From: Dysidea avara | Lineage: Eukaryota; Porifera; Demospongiae; Dictyoceratida; Dysideidae | Direction: 5' to 3' | Assembly: GCF_963678975.1 (NCBI RefSeq) | Contig: NC_089280.1 | Location: 1,873,001-1,937,000 of the forward strand | DNA: 64,000 bases | Notes under the pieces: model-generated | What the model was told of the DNA's origin: nothing | What the model saw: only the letters and a program-made list of their open reading frames with translations | Databases searched by the model: none | Shown here: in pieces, positions 55,980 to 64,000 of the stretch | Layout of the letters: each line of letters begins with the position of its first letter | How positions within the stretch are numbered: position 1 is the stretch's first letter | Translations under genes and position numbers: made by a program

Positions 55980-56260
55980 GCACGTGTTAAAAAAAAATTA
56001 AGCATGACACACGTTTGTGACGTCAGCGCTGGCCGCCAGTATTCTTAATGAATCTTGTTATACGCAGAAATCCTACGACCTTTGAACTTCCGGTACCGAA
56101 ATCACGTGATCACATTTCGGTTCCTCGGTCATCCGGCACACGAGTTCCTAAAAGTGAGATTCTTCTTCTTTGGTGCTTTGGTGTTTTATCTGTTATTCTC
56201 ACCTCAAGTAGTTACTTCGAACTGATGCTACGCGGCTTCTACGGTAAACCATAAAATGCT
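55980..56260. promoter_or_regulatory. CpG-containing patch with perfect CRE and E-box
   Basis: TGACGTCA at 56018-56025 and TCACGTGA at 56102-56109 lie in a locally CpG-rich segment unlike its surroundings. It could be the promoter of an unannotated transcript or the promoter-like 5' flank of an element. No downstream gene could be tied to it. Confidence 0.3.
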
Positions 56261-56449: not shown

Positions 56450-57228
56450 GCAGTGTCAAATAGGACAATTTCACAGATGGAATCAACTGCCACTCGTTAT
56501 CTGAAGAAGTGGTTGGACAGAACATGTCCGGCTGATGTCTGGTTTTCATCCTGGGCAGTTGTTATTTCTTTTGTGGGCTGCTTCAGATACCTTACCAACT
56601 GCAGTTAACTTTAGGCGTTGGTGTGTTCAATCTGATGTTAAGTGTACATTGTGTGACTCGACTCATCCTACCACAGCTCACATCCAAGGAGGCTGTCCTG
56701 TTGCCTTAACGCAACAGAGATATACATACCGTCATGATCAAGTTCTTCACTTTCTGGCCTCTAAACTCAAAAGAAATATTTAGTGACAATCCATCTATCC
56801 ATGTTTTTGCTGACCTTCAGGGTTTACGAGCTAGTGAAACACCTCAAGCCACTATTCTATCTACCTTACTAATCACACCTTACAGGCCAGATATTGTTGT
56901 ATATAACTCAGGCAAACCCTCTGTTGCTTTACTTGAACTAACCTGCCCTCTAGACTCAGAACACAACATTCAATCTGCTAGGTCTAGAAAACAAAATAAG
57001 ATTGAATATCATCGACTGCTTGCAGAATTTGATCACTTAAAAATCCCAAACTATTATGAAACTATTGAAATTAGTGTGCTAGGTCACTACCTACCTTCTT
57101 CCATTCAGAACATCAAGAACTTTATTGACTTTGTACAACTTTGTGTAACCACCAAATCTTCCATCCAAAAGATCCTCGACAATGCTGCTCGTCAATGTAT
57201 GACATGTTCGCAAAAGATTTTTTTGTAG
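56450..57228 (+). pseudogene. R2/NeSL-type non-LTR retrotransposon fragment
   Basis: Three pieces in different frames. 56463-56540 resembles the reverse-transcriptase thumb (ESTATRYLKKWL). 56535-56783 carries a zinc knuckle C-x2-C-x8-H-x4-C (CTLC...HIQGGC). 56784-57228 contains RPD-x14-E (RPDIVVY...LLELTCP), the restriction-enzyme-like endonuclease signature of this class. At least two frame breaks (near 56540 and 56775) and loss of nearly all of the RT show it is dead and 5'-truncated. Codons and order match the C-terminus of such elements in other animals. Confidence 0.75.
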
Positions 57229-58857: not shown

Positions 58858-59424
58858 CTAGTCAGATATCTCGATCAGTTCACTGGATACTCCTGATAAT
58901 AAAGGCTGGTAAATGCACACCCTTCCTGTATCCACAGATACTATTGCATCATAATGAGAATTTGTGTAGTATAACAACTCAAAATGTGTTGGCCTCAACA
59001 AAGTACATTCTTCCATCTCAGGAATGTGAGGATACTTGAGTGTGGGGTTGTGCAGTGGGTATATAGTATTCCACTTGTGCTCATTTCCTGACTGCTCTAT
59101 GAAAAATATCGGTACTGCAAAAACTGTTGCTGCAGCTACTACTTCTACCTGAGTGGCCCATGCACCTGACGGCCAGTTTTGCTCACAATGTTTTTCAATT
59201 GTATCCACATCTTTCCTTGGAATAAAATAAGGTCTGAAAATACTTTGGTTTTTTTTAACCATACTGGTTACCACGTGTCGAACTTCAAAGTCTTCATCTT
59301 GTGTACCGAATAGTTGAAAGGAAAGTGATGCATAGAAACAGTTTCCGTCCCATTTAATCTTTATTACTTTACGACTTTGTGTGGTTAAATATGCATCACA
59401 TGATAACATCAACTCCTCGGCTAC
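58858..59424 (-). CDS. Gene C OTU cysteine-protease exon 16
   Basis: 188 residues. IKWDGNCFYASLSFQLFG carries the catalytic Asp and Cys; WATQVEVVAAATVF matches the conserved WA..vE..A.A block; NSHYDAIV carries the catalytic His. The acceptor is ttttag before GTAGCCGAG, and the frame ends ELIEISD-TAG. The OTU triad appears intact, so deubiquitinase activity is plausible though untested. Confidence 0.92.
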   Translation of the reverse strand, partial: VAEELMLSCDAYLTTQSRKVIKIKWDGNCFYASLSFQLFGTQDEDFEVRHVVTSMVKKNQSIFRPYFIPRKDVDTIEKHCEQNWPSGAWATQVEVVAAATVFAVPIFFIEQSGNEHKWNTIYPLHNPTLKYPHIPEMEECTLLRPTHFELLYYTNSHYDAIVSVDTGRVCIYQPLLSGVSSELIEISD

Positions 59425-62400
59425 CTAAAATAAACATTCAGGCAGTATATCAAATACAATTTTAAATATTACTTTAGCAAAAGATTATAATAAAATTTGT
59501 TGTAAATGTGACTTACACCATGTTGTGTCTTAGGCTGTTTGTTTTTTCCATTGTTACTACCTGCATATGTTAAGTATGTCTGTATATTGTTTCGATTTGT
59601 TTGTTCATATACCTGATATAAAATTGTCAGTTAATTTCCTCGAAATTGTGTCGTCAACAGGCTGAATATTTTCCTAAACACATTGTGGTGCATTGGTATG
59701 TGTTAATATTACAGTAGTTCAATCATTATCAAACCTTTCTAGCAGTGTTCAGTGTATCAGTTTCCTGTGTTAATCTGTGTGTGAAAAACGCAATATCTCC
59801 ATATCATTAACAATAAATTTGTATCGACCTTTCACATTTCCGTTCACTGCATGGCCTCTTCTTCTTTCCTGGCCCTCCATATTTTGGCATGTCTTGACAG
59901 TTGACGCACTTCTCACAATTTACTCTAGTACAGCCTTTGCAAGTGTCACATCTCTTTCGCTTTTTTCCTATTTGTATGGAAACAATGCAGACGTGTAATT
60001 GTAAAATATACTGTTTACCAATAACTTGTGGCTGTTGGTCTTTGACTGTACAAATGTTTGTTTCTCTGTCAACGTAAAGCTGATTGCTATAAATACATGT
60101 ACGTTGTGTTTATCACCTTTTATGTACATATGCTTTATTTAGCTACCTGTTTGATGCTGTCTGCTGAGATCCAGATATCACTGACATTATCTTCAACTTG
60201 TCATCGTTACTAGGCTTCCTAGAAGAGAGAAGATGGTAATTATACTACGTACGTACAGTAGCTTTGCCTATAACTGTGCATGCATGTGTACAGTACACAA
60301 CAAACTTCATTGGAGGGTTAGAGGGTTTTCTTCCAGGATCTTTTGATGTTTTCCATAATCGTAATTGTATTTCATTCTTTTGTGCCGGTGCAAATTTCTC
60401 CTTAACTTCAAAATTACACAATTCATTTTCTGGTAAAGATTGGGTAACAGCCTTCAAAGCTGCAGATGCTTGCATCAGTAAACACAACACACGTTCTAGG
60501 ACATTTGAATCACAGGTGTGGTCACATGATTCACTTATGGCTTCTAGCATTTTCCTAACTGCTTCCTTGCGTCCATTGATGTCTAGTAATTATAGTAATT
60601 TGTAAATCACATTATATTAAGTACCTGAAGATTTTCACTTGTCTTGTGATGGGGTACACATGTATACAGTAGACGTCTCTGTTGTCTCAGTAGGTTCATC
60701 CTCTATAATGGACTGATGATTGATTGGTTTTAAGTCTTCCACCTGTGTGTTCACTACCAATGCTCTAACCTACATACATATTAAGTATTAAAGTTTCCCT
60801 CATACTGCATGTACATATGCAGAGTATGAAAGATGACCTTATGGGTATGCTTGCATATGTGTCCACATTTGTAGTCAATGCACGAACACTCCATGATACA
60901 CCGACACAAATGGGAACACTCGGGGGCTATGCAGTGAGGGACACACTTGCTTCCTAGTGCACATTGCTCAGCATAAACATGAATAGTGTACTCCTTCTCT
61001 CTGCTTGTAGACACAACTTTAAAGATATCCTCACTGACCATCTATTGTAGAATGACAGATTATCACTAAGTATGAGTATATAATCTATACCTGTATTGAC
61101 TCATCAGGAATTTCCATCCCACGGGTGTGCCTGTCAGTACCCTCTTGTTTTAGTGATACCTCACTGCTGTCTCTCATGACCTCCTTACGCATGCGATCAA
61201 AAAACAAATCTTCTTCAATTTGTAGGAGTGTTCCAACCAGATCATCAATTCTTTTGTTAACTTGATGTGCCAGATATCTTGGATTCATCTTTAGCTTGTT
61301 ATGAAAACTACAGATACATGCAGTAGTATATATGATGTGTAAATTGCATCTTAACCTCTTACTATTATACACCTACCTTTCTACAAGCATATTAGTGTCT
61401 GTGCTCTGGTGATCAAAGTGACGGTAACACATGGCCCACTTTTCTATTAAATTGTAAATGAACATTTTCAGTAAATATGTGCACAAGTGTTATTACAAGT
61501 AATTGCTACAACTGGTCCCCCAAAAGTTGGTCCTCCTGACCACCTATATCAGCCACTGATGGTTCCGTAGACCACTTACAGTGCCACAAATGGTCCCTAC
61601 GGACCATTTACAGCACTATGGATAGTTTCCATTTAACATAACAATAACCCATGTAACAAACATGAGTTGTATAATCAGCAGAGTTTGTCACTTTTCACTT
61701 ATGATTGTGTACAGTAACTATACCATGTATACATACCACCAATAACAGAAGCCAGTCCTTATTATAAGTTTTGCTTCACTCAACATGTATCTTTTCTAAA
61801 AGGTAAAAGCTATGGTAAATCTTTTAAGTATCACAATCATGCTGGTTGAGAACATATCATATCACCCGTATCATTGTGGTTTGAGTCATTAGCTAGCTAC
61901 CATATTATAGCTAGATAGTTAGGCAGGAGGAAAGTTGTAGCAGTAGGATTCTGGTGAGAAAATTTTTGGTGAAATTGTTACAGATTTGTATTGGACAAAT
62001 GATTTGGCAGATTTTAGTTTGTTGAAATACCACACAGTTGCCAAACTTTCTACAGTATTGTGTGAGTGGGTGGGGATCACTTGTAACAAGGAACCAATTG
62101 AGACAACATTATATGCTCTGGCCAAACCATTAGAAGTACTGTTGTTGGCCTGGCCAGACAACTTGGAATGTGGACCACTTACATCATGACAGTACCTGCT
62201 CTGGATCTATACTCATTGTTGTAATACTCTATAAACTTCGGCTGTCTGGTAGACCAATAAGTTGTGAAAGTTTCCTCCTTATCTTTAAATGTGTCGCTGT
62301 CCTCTTCGTTCATTAGTATCCATAAACATGCATATAGGTTTGCCTTCTGTTCTGAATCCTTCACTAGGGCTTTCAATTTTCTCTGCCATGCTCTAAGTGT

Positions 62401-64000
62401 TTTGTATAAATACATGTTGTGATAAAAACAAATTGAGGTAGCACATTAACCTGTACCTATCAATATGCCATTTACAAAGCAAATGTCTCACTCCTGGATA
62501 TACAGTACTACATCCATTGACTCCAGCCAAATCTACAAACATCATTGAAAATATGAAATAACACATCTTGTCATTGTGACACAATAGCTAGATACATACC
62601 GTCATCTGTCATCAAATTAGTAATCTTTGCTTTAGGACATCGTTCATGAACTACTTTGAAAAACATAGTTAGTGTAGCTTCATCTTCTCTATTAGAGATC
62701 AACCAAGCCACAGGACATCCTGGGTGTATATAAGCATAAGTATGCAGGGCAGGTTCTAACGATATTAAGAATTGTGATTTGGATTATACAAATGATTAGC
62801 TGTTCATAGAAATACAAGTGTGCACACTATCTTGTAATGTGATTGCTGGCAGCCTGGCATGACATGTAATTTTTATACCAAATACATTTGTAATACAATG
62901 CCAACCATTAAACCTGCATGTATAGCAGTACGTAGTCAGTACAGGGTACAATATGGGACTCACAGCCAAGAAATCATAATAATCAGGGAGGGGGGTTATT
63001 TCAAACTCCTTATGTTTTGCTACTGCTATGTTACTGATTGTTATAGATGGAAAGAAATTACATACATGAAAAGTTATCTTTAAAGATGGGCAAATAAATG
63101 TTAACAAATGTAATGTGAAAGTAGCATCCCTTAATTCTGTATATGCATGGGGATGTGCATTTCAAGGTCTTATACTCATTAGGCCATGCATACCTATCTG
63201 ATCTCATGTTGTGCAGGCCCGACCAACTGCATTTTTCTTCAAGTGAAATAATTTTGAAAATCATGTGTGTGGATGGCATGTTCCAATTAAAAGACCATAC
63301 AATTGTGTTACAGCCAAAAGGGCCCATTGAAGATTGTCCAACAGTCTAAAATTGTACAGATATAATGGGAAAGCTCAAAGTGGGGAGCCTAGCTGGCAAA
63401 CAGGCAGTGTGATAATATGAAACCTGAATTTTTAACTGTGTATGTAAAATATAGCTACTGCATTTTGTATGAAAATTGCTATCATTTTCAAACTGATCTA
63501 CCTACCCAAATTTAAAATAATTTTGCTCGTGCAACATAAGATCAAATAGGTATGGTCTAATGATTATAACAACAGATTAATAATTAATACAGTGCAGTTT
63601 AATGTTGTCTTACCATTACGAAACTCATCTGGGACTACCAGTGTTACTAACTTATGTTTATACTGGTTTGTCCGGTGCGTTGAATCCAGGCACACAATTT
63701 TGGCTGAAAATTCTTCAAATATATTCATCTGAAATTCTGTCATGATAGCCAAAAAGAAACTATCATCAGGTAGTAGGTACTGGGCATTGGTAATCCCTTG
63801 CTGCTTATATGCTATAATTGGTGATGGTGATTCTTGATTTAGTTCATTGACAAGACGATCTACAGAAATGGCATCATCTGTGTGTCGATGTTTTATAAAT
63901 TCATTTAGTTTTCTTCGTATGTTTCTGCAATCTTGGCGAGAAACGAAGTGCTTTCTGCTTGCAGTTTCTCTGAAATATTGTCTCTTTACACGACTACCCA
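58858..64000 (-). CDS. MULE transposase - SWIM - CXXC - OTU multidomain gene (gene C), 5' partial
   Basis: Sixteen exons on the minus strand: 64000-63614 (partial), 62719-62600, 62532-62457, 62392-62196, 61443-61377, 61307-61091, 61041-60838, 60769-60658 (or to 60625), 60582-60306, 60218-60147, 60086-60019, 59967-59829, 59774-59735, 59673-59613, 59560-59517, 59424-58858. Phases agree throughout, giving about 881 residues to the TAG at 58858-58860. Domain order: Mutator-like DDE transposase, SWIM zinc finger, CXXC zinc finger, OTU cysteine protease. A MULE transposase cuts and moves DNA; CXXC fingers bind unmethylated CpG; OTU domains cleave ubiquitin chains. One weak point is exon 8: its best donor leaves an in-frame TGA at 60635-60637, so a poor donor (after 60658) or a nonsense change must be assumed. 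It may be an intron-bearing Mutator/Phantom-type element or a domesticated host gene. Confidence 0.87.
59829..59967 (-). CDS. Gene C CXXC zinc-finger exon 12
   Basis: The exon encodes CDTCKGC, NCEKCVNC, KYGGPGKKK and CSERKC in order: all eight cysteines of a CXXC finger (C-x2-C-x2-C-x4-C-x2-C-x2-C, then C-x4-C) with the KFGG loop as KYGG. A basic KKRKR run precedes it. Known CXXC fingers of this type read unmethylated CpG. Phase 1 in, phase 2 out, consistent with neighbours. Confidence 0.9.
60838..61041 (-). CDS. Gene C SWIM zinc-finger exon 7
   Basis: EYTIHVY, a Cys-rich stretch (CVPHC, CSHLCRC), then CSCIDYKCGHICKH, fitting C-x-C-xn-C-x-H(-x-C-x-H). SWIM fingers follow the DDE core in nearly all MULE transposases and bind nucleic acid or protein. 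Phase 0 at both ends. Confidence 0.87.
61091..64000 (-). CDS. Gene C MULE DDE catalytic exons 1-6
   Basis: First catalytic Asp in VCLDSTHRTN (exon 63614-64000); second in LMTDD (62600-62719); the zinc-like C-x2-H of the insert in LLCKWHIDRAW across the 62457/62392 junction; catalytic Glu in LVESFHNKLK across 61377/61307. The flanking strings MTEFQM, VVPDEF, GCPVAWLISNRED and EKWAMCYRHF are classic MULE blocks. All three acidic residues are present, so the nuclease core may be functional. Confidence 0.9.
61986..62189 (+). other. Unassigned plus-strand frame inside a gene C intron
   Basis: 67 codons, starting MYWTNDLADFSLLKYHTVAK and ending GPLTS-TGA, opposite to gene C in the 752-bp intron 61444-62195. 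Amino-acid composition is coding-like but no family was recognised; could be another element's fragment. Confidence 0.2.

Follow-up and report, generated by a model that had tools for sequence, protein, structure and literature searches.

The locus described here raises the question of whether a transposase, a CpG-binding finger and a deubiquitinase may be encoded by one gene, and whether such a gene belongs to a mobile element or to its host. The window analysed (the whole stretch of 64,000 bp) corresponds to positions 1873001-1937000 of contig C9 in the genome assembly (550.8 Mb, 108 contigs) of Dysidea avara, a dictyoceratid demosponge, and the best protein matches of the gene are themselves D. 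avara proteins. The gene is split and occupies 58858-64000 of the window on the minus strand, from which its exons were rebuilt. As judged from its sequence, the locus is a copy of a transposon of approximately 10 kb, belonging to the Mutator superfamily. Its single gene, in an intact copy, encodes a protein of 1137 amino acids (aa) with a Mutator-like element (MULE) transposase core, a SWIM motif, a CXXC zinc finger and an ovarian tumour (OTU) cysteine protease domain, which probably acts by the mechanism proposed below.

The initial annotation had named a MULE DDE core, SWIM, CXXC and OTU in that order, and our analysis confirmed this. The protein encoded by the window copy contains regions scoring over the Pfam cut-off for MULE (PF10551; 1.9e-15), zf-CXXC (PF02008; 3.7e-11) and OTU (PF02338; 1.3e-10), as well as for the ZSWIM1-3 RNaseH-like domain (PF21056; 6.8e-12) and Peptidase C65 (3.1e-07). 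The order along the minus strand is MULE, SWIM, CXXC, OTU. PF10551 also matched the protein of another copy, C12a (1.9e-14). A pattern search of C12a located the catalytic D, D and E residues with the CxxH motif, the SWIM pattern CSC-x8-CKH and eight CXXC cysteines, the same residues being present in the window translation; the OTU active-site Cys and His (DGNC/HYD) were found in C12a as DGNCFY and SHYD. In the window, with exons numbered according to the final 20-exon model, the MULE core starts in exon 5 (63614-64000, reaching 64015), which carries the first catalytic Asp (CLDSTH). The second Asp (LMTDDD) is split between exon 6 (62600-62719) and exon 7 (62457-62532), the latter also encoding the CxxH motif (CKWH). 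The catalytic Glu (MLVE) lies in exon 9 (61377-61443), and the SF residues that follow it in exon 10 (61091-61307). The SWIM motif is placed in exon 11 (60838-61041); the Pfam SWIM model gave no match in the window protein, and this assignment rests on the CSC-x8-CKH pattern and its conservation in relatives. The zf-CXXC domain is encoded by exon 16 (59829-59967), and the OTU domain, together with the stop codon, by exon 20 (58858-59424). The nearest solved chains to the CXXC domain are those of KMT2B (1.6e-10) and DNMT1 (2.9e-08), alignment with which revealed KYGG in place of KFGG. The best solved chain for the OTU domain is OTUD1 (0.0019). Two C2H2-like motifs were recognised by eye in the N-terminal part of the protein, where no Pfam match was obtained.

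The gene is flanked by an inverted repeat of 48 bp with 95.8% identity (56047-56094 and 65976-66023, in coordinates extended past the window end). Comparison of the copies fixes the terminus at GAATCT, which gives the window element a length of 9971 bp (56050 to 66020 in extended coordinates; C9:1929050-1939020) and 45-bp terminal inverted repeats (TIRs). The TIR on the 3' side of the gene is located at 56050-56094 and the other lies outside the window. A 24-base TIR core (at most two mismatches) was found at 16 places in 550 Mb, and the reversed-pattern control at none. Ten of these places form five facing pairs with a spacing of approximately 10 kb, and inside each pair lies a single copy of the OTU exon, located independently by DNA search. 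The five complete copies thus bounded (the window copy, C3a, C9b, C12a and C12b) are 96.7-99.3% identical, and in all five the two ends agree at 43 of 45 bp. The 9-bp flanks match at nine of nine positions in C3a and at eight of nine in both C12a and C9b; flank lengths of 8 and 10 gave no match better than 5, and 20 mispaired flanks reached at most 6, except for one at 8 (window copy and C9b, which have a flank in common). The expected Mutator-type TIRs were therefore present in every complete copy, and the expected target duplications of 8-11 bp were found, as 9-bp duplications, at three of the five. The left flank of C12b continues across the insertion point of C3a, with 58 bp matching the left flank of C3a at 98.3% and 29 bp matching the right flank at 93.1%, so that it appears to be, in effect, the empty site of the C3a insertion. 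C9b (C9:2013114-2023683) and the window copy differ by two residues and have one flank in common (1493 bp at 99.8%), the other flanks diverging from the exact terminal repeat on. This pair is perhaps a duplication with an altered end, maybe produced by alternative-end transposition.

The frame of C12a is uninterrupted between ATG and stop (1137 aa, 20 exons, GT/AG throughout). The remaining four complete copies carry a stop, located within the MULE core in C3a and represented by a TGA codon in C12b, C9b and the window copy. The initial annotation had proposed a count of genomic copies and an estimate of dN/dS; these gave five TIR-bounded copies and a ratio below 1 in all nine of the pairs for which it is defined, with values of 0.21-0.33 in seven of the ten copy pairs, which share copies and are not independent. 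The Fisher test gave p values of 0.0002-0.001 in three of the ten pairs. For the CXXC-OTU half of the gene, dN/dS was 0.20-0.36 in the same seven pairs (of the nine defined), and 0.61 and 0.70 in the other two. We infer from the dispersed, 96.7-99.3% identical copies that movement was recent: the region is a recently mobile, low-copy transposon and not a domesticated gene. The facing TIRs, the 9-bp duplications that three of the five complete copies show, the dispersed near-identical copies and the fully open copy bear out the earlier suggestion of a distinct element family. The other possibility raised at that time, a domesticated chromatin factor, does not agree with a family that is multi-copy, TIR-bounded and recently mobile, nor with the interruption of the window copy.

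This interruption is located between SWIM and CXXC. Exon 12 (60625-60769), which ends with the strong donor CTTCAG/GTACTT, joins exon 13 (60306-60582) in phase, and this join places an in-frame TGA at 60637-60635. A donor just before the TGA (CAA/GTGAAA) proved to be out of phase and was dropped; a weaker in-phase donor, ATGT/GTACCC (60658), would bypass it. The codon at this site is TGA in three of the five complete copies (window copy, C9b and C12b) and CGA (Arg) in the other two (C12a and C3a), while an older copy, C3b, has CAA (Gln). This spread of codons (CGA, CAA, TGA) indicates that the frame of the family was probably once open. The window copy is probably truncated after SWIM, and its CXXC-OTU part is probably untranslated. 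The derivation of both TGA and CAA from one CpG codon would be the pattern expected of methyl-CpG decay. The copy closest to the window copy, its duplicate aside, is C3a (99.28%), and the closest to C12b is C12a (99.03%, the next being 98.91%). Since both of these neighbours have CGA, two separate losses leading to TGA are suggested, albeit by a thin margin.

Annotated proteins and relatives support the joining of MULE and CXXC-OTU in one protein at the level of the family. The NCBI model P0001, which matches copy C3a without a difference over 629 aa, spans in one frame the region preceding the catalytic Glu, SWIM, CXXC and OTU. It begins inside the MULE core, downstream of both Asp residues, and this late start fits the stop within the MULE core of C3a. 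The best match outside D. avara is P0003 (JGI, from a contig of 2211 bases), which is 53% identical to the window protein and contains MULE, SWIM and CXXC in a single frame; no OTU domain is present in its known 638 aa, the contig being short. P0003 and P0001 are collinear through the linker (48%; 191 of 397 columns), which in the window is encoded by exon 13. With the CXXC-OTU region as the query, only P0001 was found among 618 candidates, and no CXXC-OTU combination outside D. avara was detected at that sensitivity. The claim that transposase, CXXC and OTU belong to one gene is thus upheld for the family by the frame of C12a, P0001 and P0003, but does not extend to a full protein made from the window copy. 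Another NCBI model, P0002, stops at the TGA and includes MULE only. It was considered as the annotation of the window copy and rejected, as its sequence assigns it to C9b on the same contig: over the compared parts it is identical to C9b and differs once from the window copy. P0002 omits exon 5 (402 nt, in frame), the site of the first catalytic Asp, and if this model is real, it describes a transposase without a complete DDE triad.

The CXXC-OTU combination is widespread in the D. avara genome. Profile searches were evaluated for the best 150 of 193 candidates with PF02008 (all over the cut-off), the best 150 of 410 with PF10551 and the best 150 of 230 with PF02338 (149 matches), and the counts of neighbouring domains are lower bounds. 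At least 66 of the best 150 CXXC matches have an OTU match within 5 kb, in all 66 cases downstream and on the same strand; 200 position shuffles gave a mean of 1.45 such neighbours and a maximum of 4. At least 39 of the best 150 MULE matches have CXXC within 10 kb, 37 of them with CXXC downstream on the same strand (shuffles: mean 1.05, maximum 4), and at least 14 of these 37 pairs are followed by OTU further downstream. The sites are copies and not independent events, six of the 14 triples having equal spacing and representing one family. None of the 14 belongs to the window family, as its intron-split MULE is missing from the MULE list. Host CXXC genes are expected to number a dozen or so, and the CXXC matches in this genome (at least 150 among 193 candidates) lie far above that expectation.

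A second D. avara MULE family (L085, with protein P0013) has the same MULE-SWIM-CXXC-OTU order and a very divergent MULE core, whose MULE-SWIM region matches mostly PF15299-type MULE proteins of other animals. The NCBI model P0013 links the post-SWIM tail of this family to CXXC and OTU, and the CXXC-OTU parts of the two families are 31% identical over 298 residues (8e-35). L085 had been considered as a CXXC-free MULE and was rejected as such because it carries both CXXC and OTU. No terminal repeats were found for it in the 8 kb read. In a third family (L086), a CXXC domain with KKQ lies downstream of MULE; no OTU was present in the 3.5 kb read. A search for inverted repeats in L001-L008 yielded one weak 19-bp pair only.

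These data allow three other origins of the locus to be weighed. Two adjacent genes, one for MULE-SWIM that the TGA closes and another for CXXC-OTU, would account for the closure of the MULE frame in the window copy and for the end of P0002, the model of the near-identical C9b, at the same point, as well as for the starts of P0001 (within the MULE core, past two Asp) and P0013 (after SWIM). We nevertheless consider this arrangement very unlikely, as C12a is open across the join, P0001 (Glu-SWIM-CXXC-OTU) and P0003 (MULE to CXXC) are each single-frame with a collinear linker, and the exact match of P0001 to C3a explains its late start. A chromatin regulator domesticated from a MULE would be in keeping with dN/dS below 1 in all nine defined pairs, but such constraint is equally expected of an active transposase. 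Multiple TIR-bounded copies, target duplications at three of them, near-identical dispersed copies and a stop in four of the five make this origin highly improbable. We attach just as little credence to captured, non-functional gene fragments or a chance juxtaposition. Gene fragments are indeed carried by plant Pack-MULEs, according to the portion of the source consulted (PMC6431247), but the domains share the same order and strand at all of at least 66 places, a homologous module is present in two families, and the CXXC-OTU half evolves with dN/dS of 0.20-0.36 in seven of the nine defined pairs. A transposon with a single composite gene remains the reading that we prefer.

It had also been proposed that the CXXC finger steers the element to unmethylated CpG islands. 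The genome is CpG-depleted: an arbitrary 13-mer occurs at 47 places, and in 60 flanks of 500 bp from 30 of them the mean CpG observed/expected ratio (o/e) was 0.28, with one of the 60 reaching 0.8. At 12 of the 16 terminal-repeat places, o/e was at least 0.8 in the outside 500 bp. These places were reduced to nine insertion sites, leaving out C9w (whose right flank is that of C9b and whose left differs) and C9c (which has no real terminal repeat); for five of the nine, one flank only is known. Their o/e values are 0.73, 1.00, 1.02, 0.93, 0.84, 0.23, 0.89, 1.28 and 1.07, eight of the nine falling at 0.7-1.3, compared with a mean of 0.28 and a maximum of 0.66 at random loci (Mann-Whitney p 5e-05). 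A long element interior is common to six of the sites (C3a, C9b, C12a, C12b, C3b and C14), of which five exceed the random maximum. The terminal 200 bp of the element have o/e of 1.0-2.1, as opposed to 0.33-0.36 in the interior, in all five complete copies; since the ends and the interior of a copy are equally old, youth alone does not explain the CpG-rich ends. These observations fit, without proving it, targeting of CpG islands by the CXXC finger, or protection of the ends by the same finger.

In the mechanism that we propose, the DDE core would perform cut-and-paste transposition, and the CXXC finger would bind unmethylated CpG. In a genome as depleted of CpG as this one, such CpG would cluster at the ends of the element itself and in promoter-like DNA. 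The transposase might thereby distinguish ends and targets that are accessible and unmethylated from chromatin that is methylated. The OTU domain could strip ubiquitin either from the transposase, increasing its stability, or from chromatin at CpG-rich sites, creating a permissive state. It is quite possible, if somewhat less so, that the same transposon lands in CpG-rich sites through a general liking of MULEs for open 5' regions of genes, and that CXXC and OTU act otherwise, for instance by shielding the ends of the element from methylation (anti-silencing) or by stabilising the transposase. The contrast between CpG-rich ends and CpG-depleted interiors in the same copies, as if the ends were kept unmethylated, agrees with that explanation as well, and so does the enrichment of Muta1 near genes described below. 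Nothing speaks directly against it, but it leaves unexplained why CXXC and OTU have been kept together, in order, at no fewer than 66 places.

Several observations count against the transposon with CXXC-guided targeting. Muta1, described in the accessible part of its source with FLYWCH and DDE, CXXC not being named there, is likewise enriched near genes, with 64.3% of 171 sites genic versus 28.7% of random sites (PMC5225508). The CpG-rich insertion sites were compared with random loci and not with the insertions of CXXC-free MULEs, and the older copy C3b lies in CpG-poor DNA (0.23). The steering proposal thus gains a fitting set of insertion sites but not a proof. In the CXXC finger, the Gln of the K/R-Q pair is the residue that we take to contact CpG. 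In the window copy, as in five others, KR stands where KMT2B has KQ, so this Gln is absent and the CpG specificity of the finger may be doubted; P0003 and the third family (L086) retain KKQ. With regard to mobility, the 9-bp flanks of the window copy and of C12b match at six and five positions, respectively, which represents no target duplication, and the duplication of C12a sits in a run of T. The flanks of C3a and C12b contain a common repeat of 301 bp and are not independent contexts. In the 1.5 kb read, what the C2 and C8 places have in common with the element end is limited to 39-66 bp, and for C6 to approximately 254 bp, so that all three may belong to other families. Two pairs of copies have dN/dS of 0.64 and 0.72, and in one pair the ratio is undefined (zero synonymous change).

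The gene had been presented as 16 phase-consistent exons on the minus strand. The strand was correct and all 16 exons are present in the window, but the phase breaks at the in-frame TGA of the exon 12-13 join, and the gene is longer. Its 20 exons lie between 65922 and 58858 (extended coordinates), with GT/AG at every junction of the final model. A gene complete within the window was rejected when further exons were found beyond its end: the start lies approximately 1.9 kb past the window end, exons 1-4 are wholly outside, and exon 5 begins 15 bases past the end. The exons without an assigned motif are exon 8 (62196-62392), exon 14 (60147-60218), exon 15 (60019-60086), exon 17 (59735-59774), exon 18 (59613-59673) and exon 19 (59517-59560; donor GTAAGT). 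Several other donors considered for exons 13 and 19 were discarded. Approximately 2.8 kb of the element (58857-56050) separates the stop codon of the OTU exon from the terminal repeat and contains an open reading frame (ORF) of 172 aa on the plus strand (56710-57228) without a Pfam match. Another ORF, starting approximately 130-150 bp beyond the right-hand end of the window element (L010, approximately 1150-1430), resembles by eye exon 1 of a ligand-binding receptor of the GABA-B type and has no Pfam match.

Knowledge of animal MULEs is poor, as is that of the way in which DNA transposons in heavily methylated genomes locate promoter-type DNA that is unmethylated. In the element described here, the transposase brings along a candidate sensor of methylation and a candidate ubiquitin protease. 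This holds for at least two divergent MULE families of the sponge, and a choice of targets guided by methylation could be tested directly by mutation of a single finger. Among the annotated CXXC and OTU genes of D. avara, many may be parts of transposons. In the host, the CXXC protein KDM2B brings the H2A ubiquitin ligase PRC1 to CpG islands. By analogy, sponge MULEs could have radiated around a CXXC and OTU module that mirrors KDM2B-PRC1, the transposase landing on unmethylated CpG islands and removing ubiquitin there, so that the methylation map of the host would decide where the element is cut and inserted. We regard this idea as speculative and rather doubtful; if it were true, most of the 150 best CXXC matches (of 193 candidates) would be borne by transposons.

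The suggestion that a CXXC-bearing MULE had not been described holds for the literature searched: none was found in full-text searches, Repbase and subscription papers lying outside their scope. In a survey of 50 numbered MULE groups, the words CXXC, sponge and Porifera are absent from the main text (PMC6446971). The same source, in the part consulted, includes the cnidarian MuDR-6_HM (MULE group 14, Dupeyron et al. 2019), which resembles our element in being a MULE with an OTU motif and differs in that its table row lists neither a zinc finger nor a TIR (PMC6446971), the two being set apart by description and not by sequence. Rehavkus, as presented in the available part of this survey, is also Mutator-like, with 9-bp target duplications and a chromatin reader, but the reader is PHD and not CXXC, and the element is associated with a minisatellite and occurs in arthropods and annelids (PMC6446971). 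MULE-SWIM proteins of metazoans that carry Ulp1 and PHD, such as P0027 of Lytechinus variegatus, likewise add to the MULE-SWIM core a finger that reads chromatin and a ubiquitin-like protease. They have Ulp1 (C48) instead of OTU and PHD instead of CXXC, in the reverse order, together with a PF15299 (CARF-type) N-terminus, and are known here as proteins only. MULE-SWIM proteins ending in PHD occur with or without Ulp1, as in P0008 (Trichonephila) and P0027. The addition of a reader and a protease to MULE-SWIM proteins may be a recurrent theme across animals. ZSWIM1/3 (PF21056), to which the RNaseH-like core is similar (6.8e-12), are host genes, whereas the gene described here is part of a mobile element. 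OTU is thus already known in MULEs, and the novelty of the D. avara element would be the CXXC finger, a reader placed beside the protease in a MULE protein.

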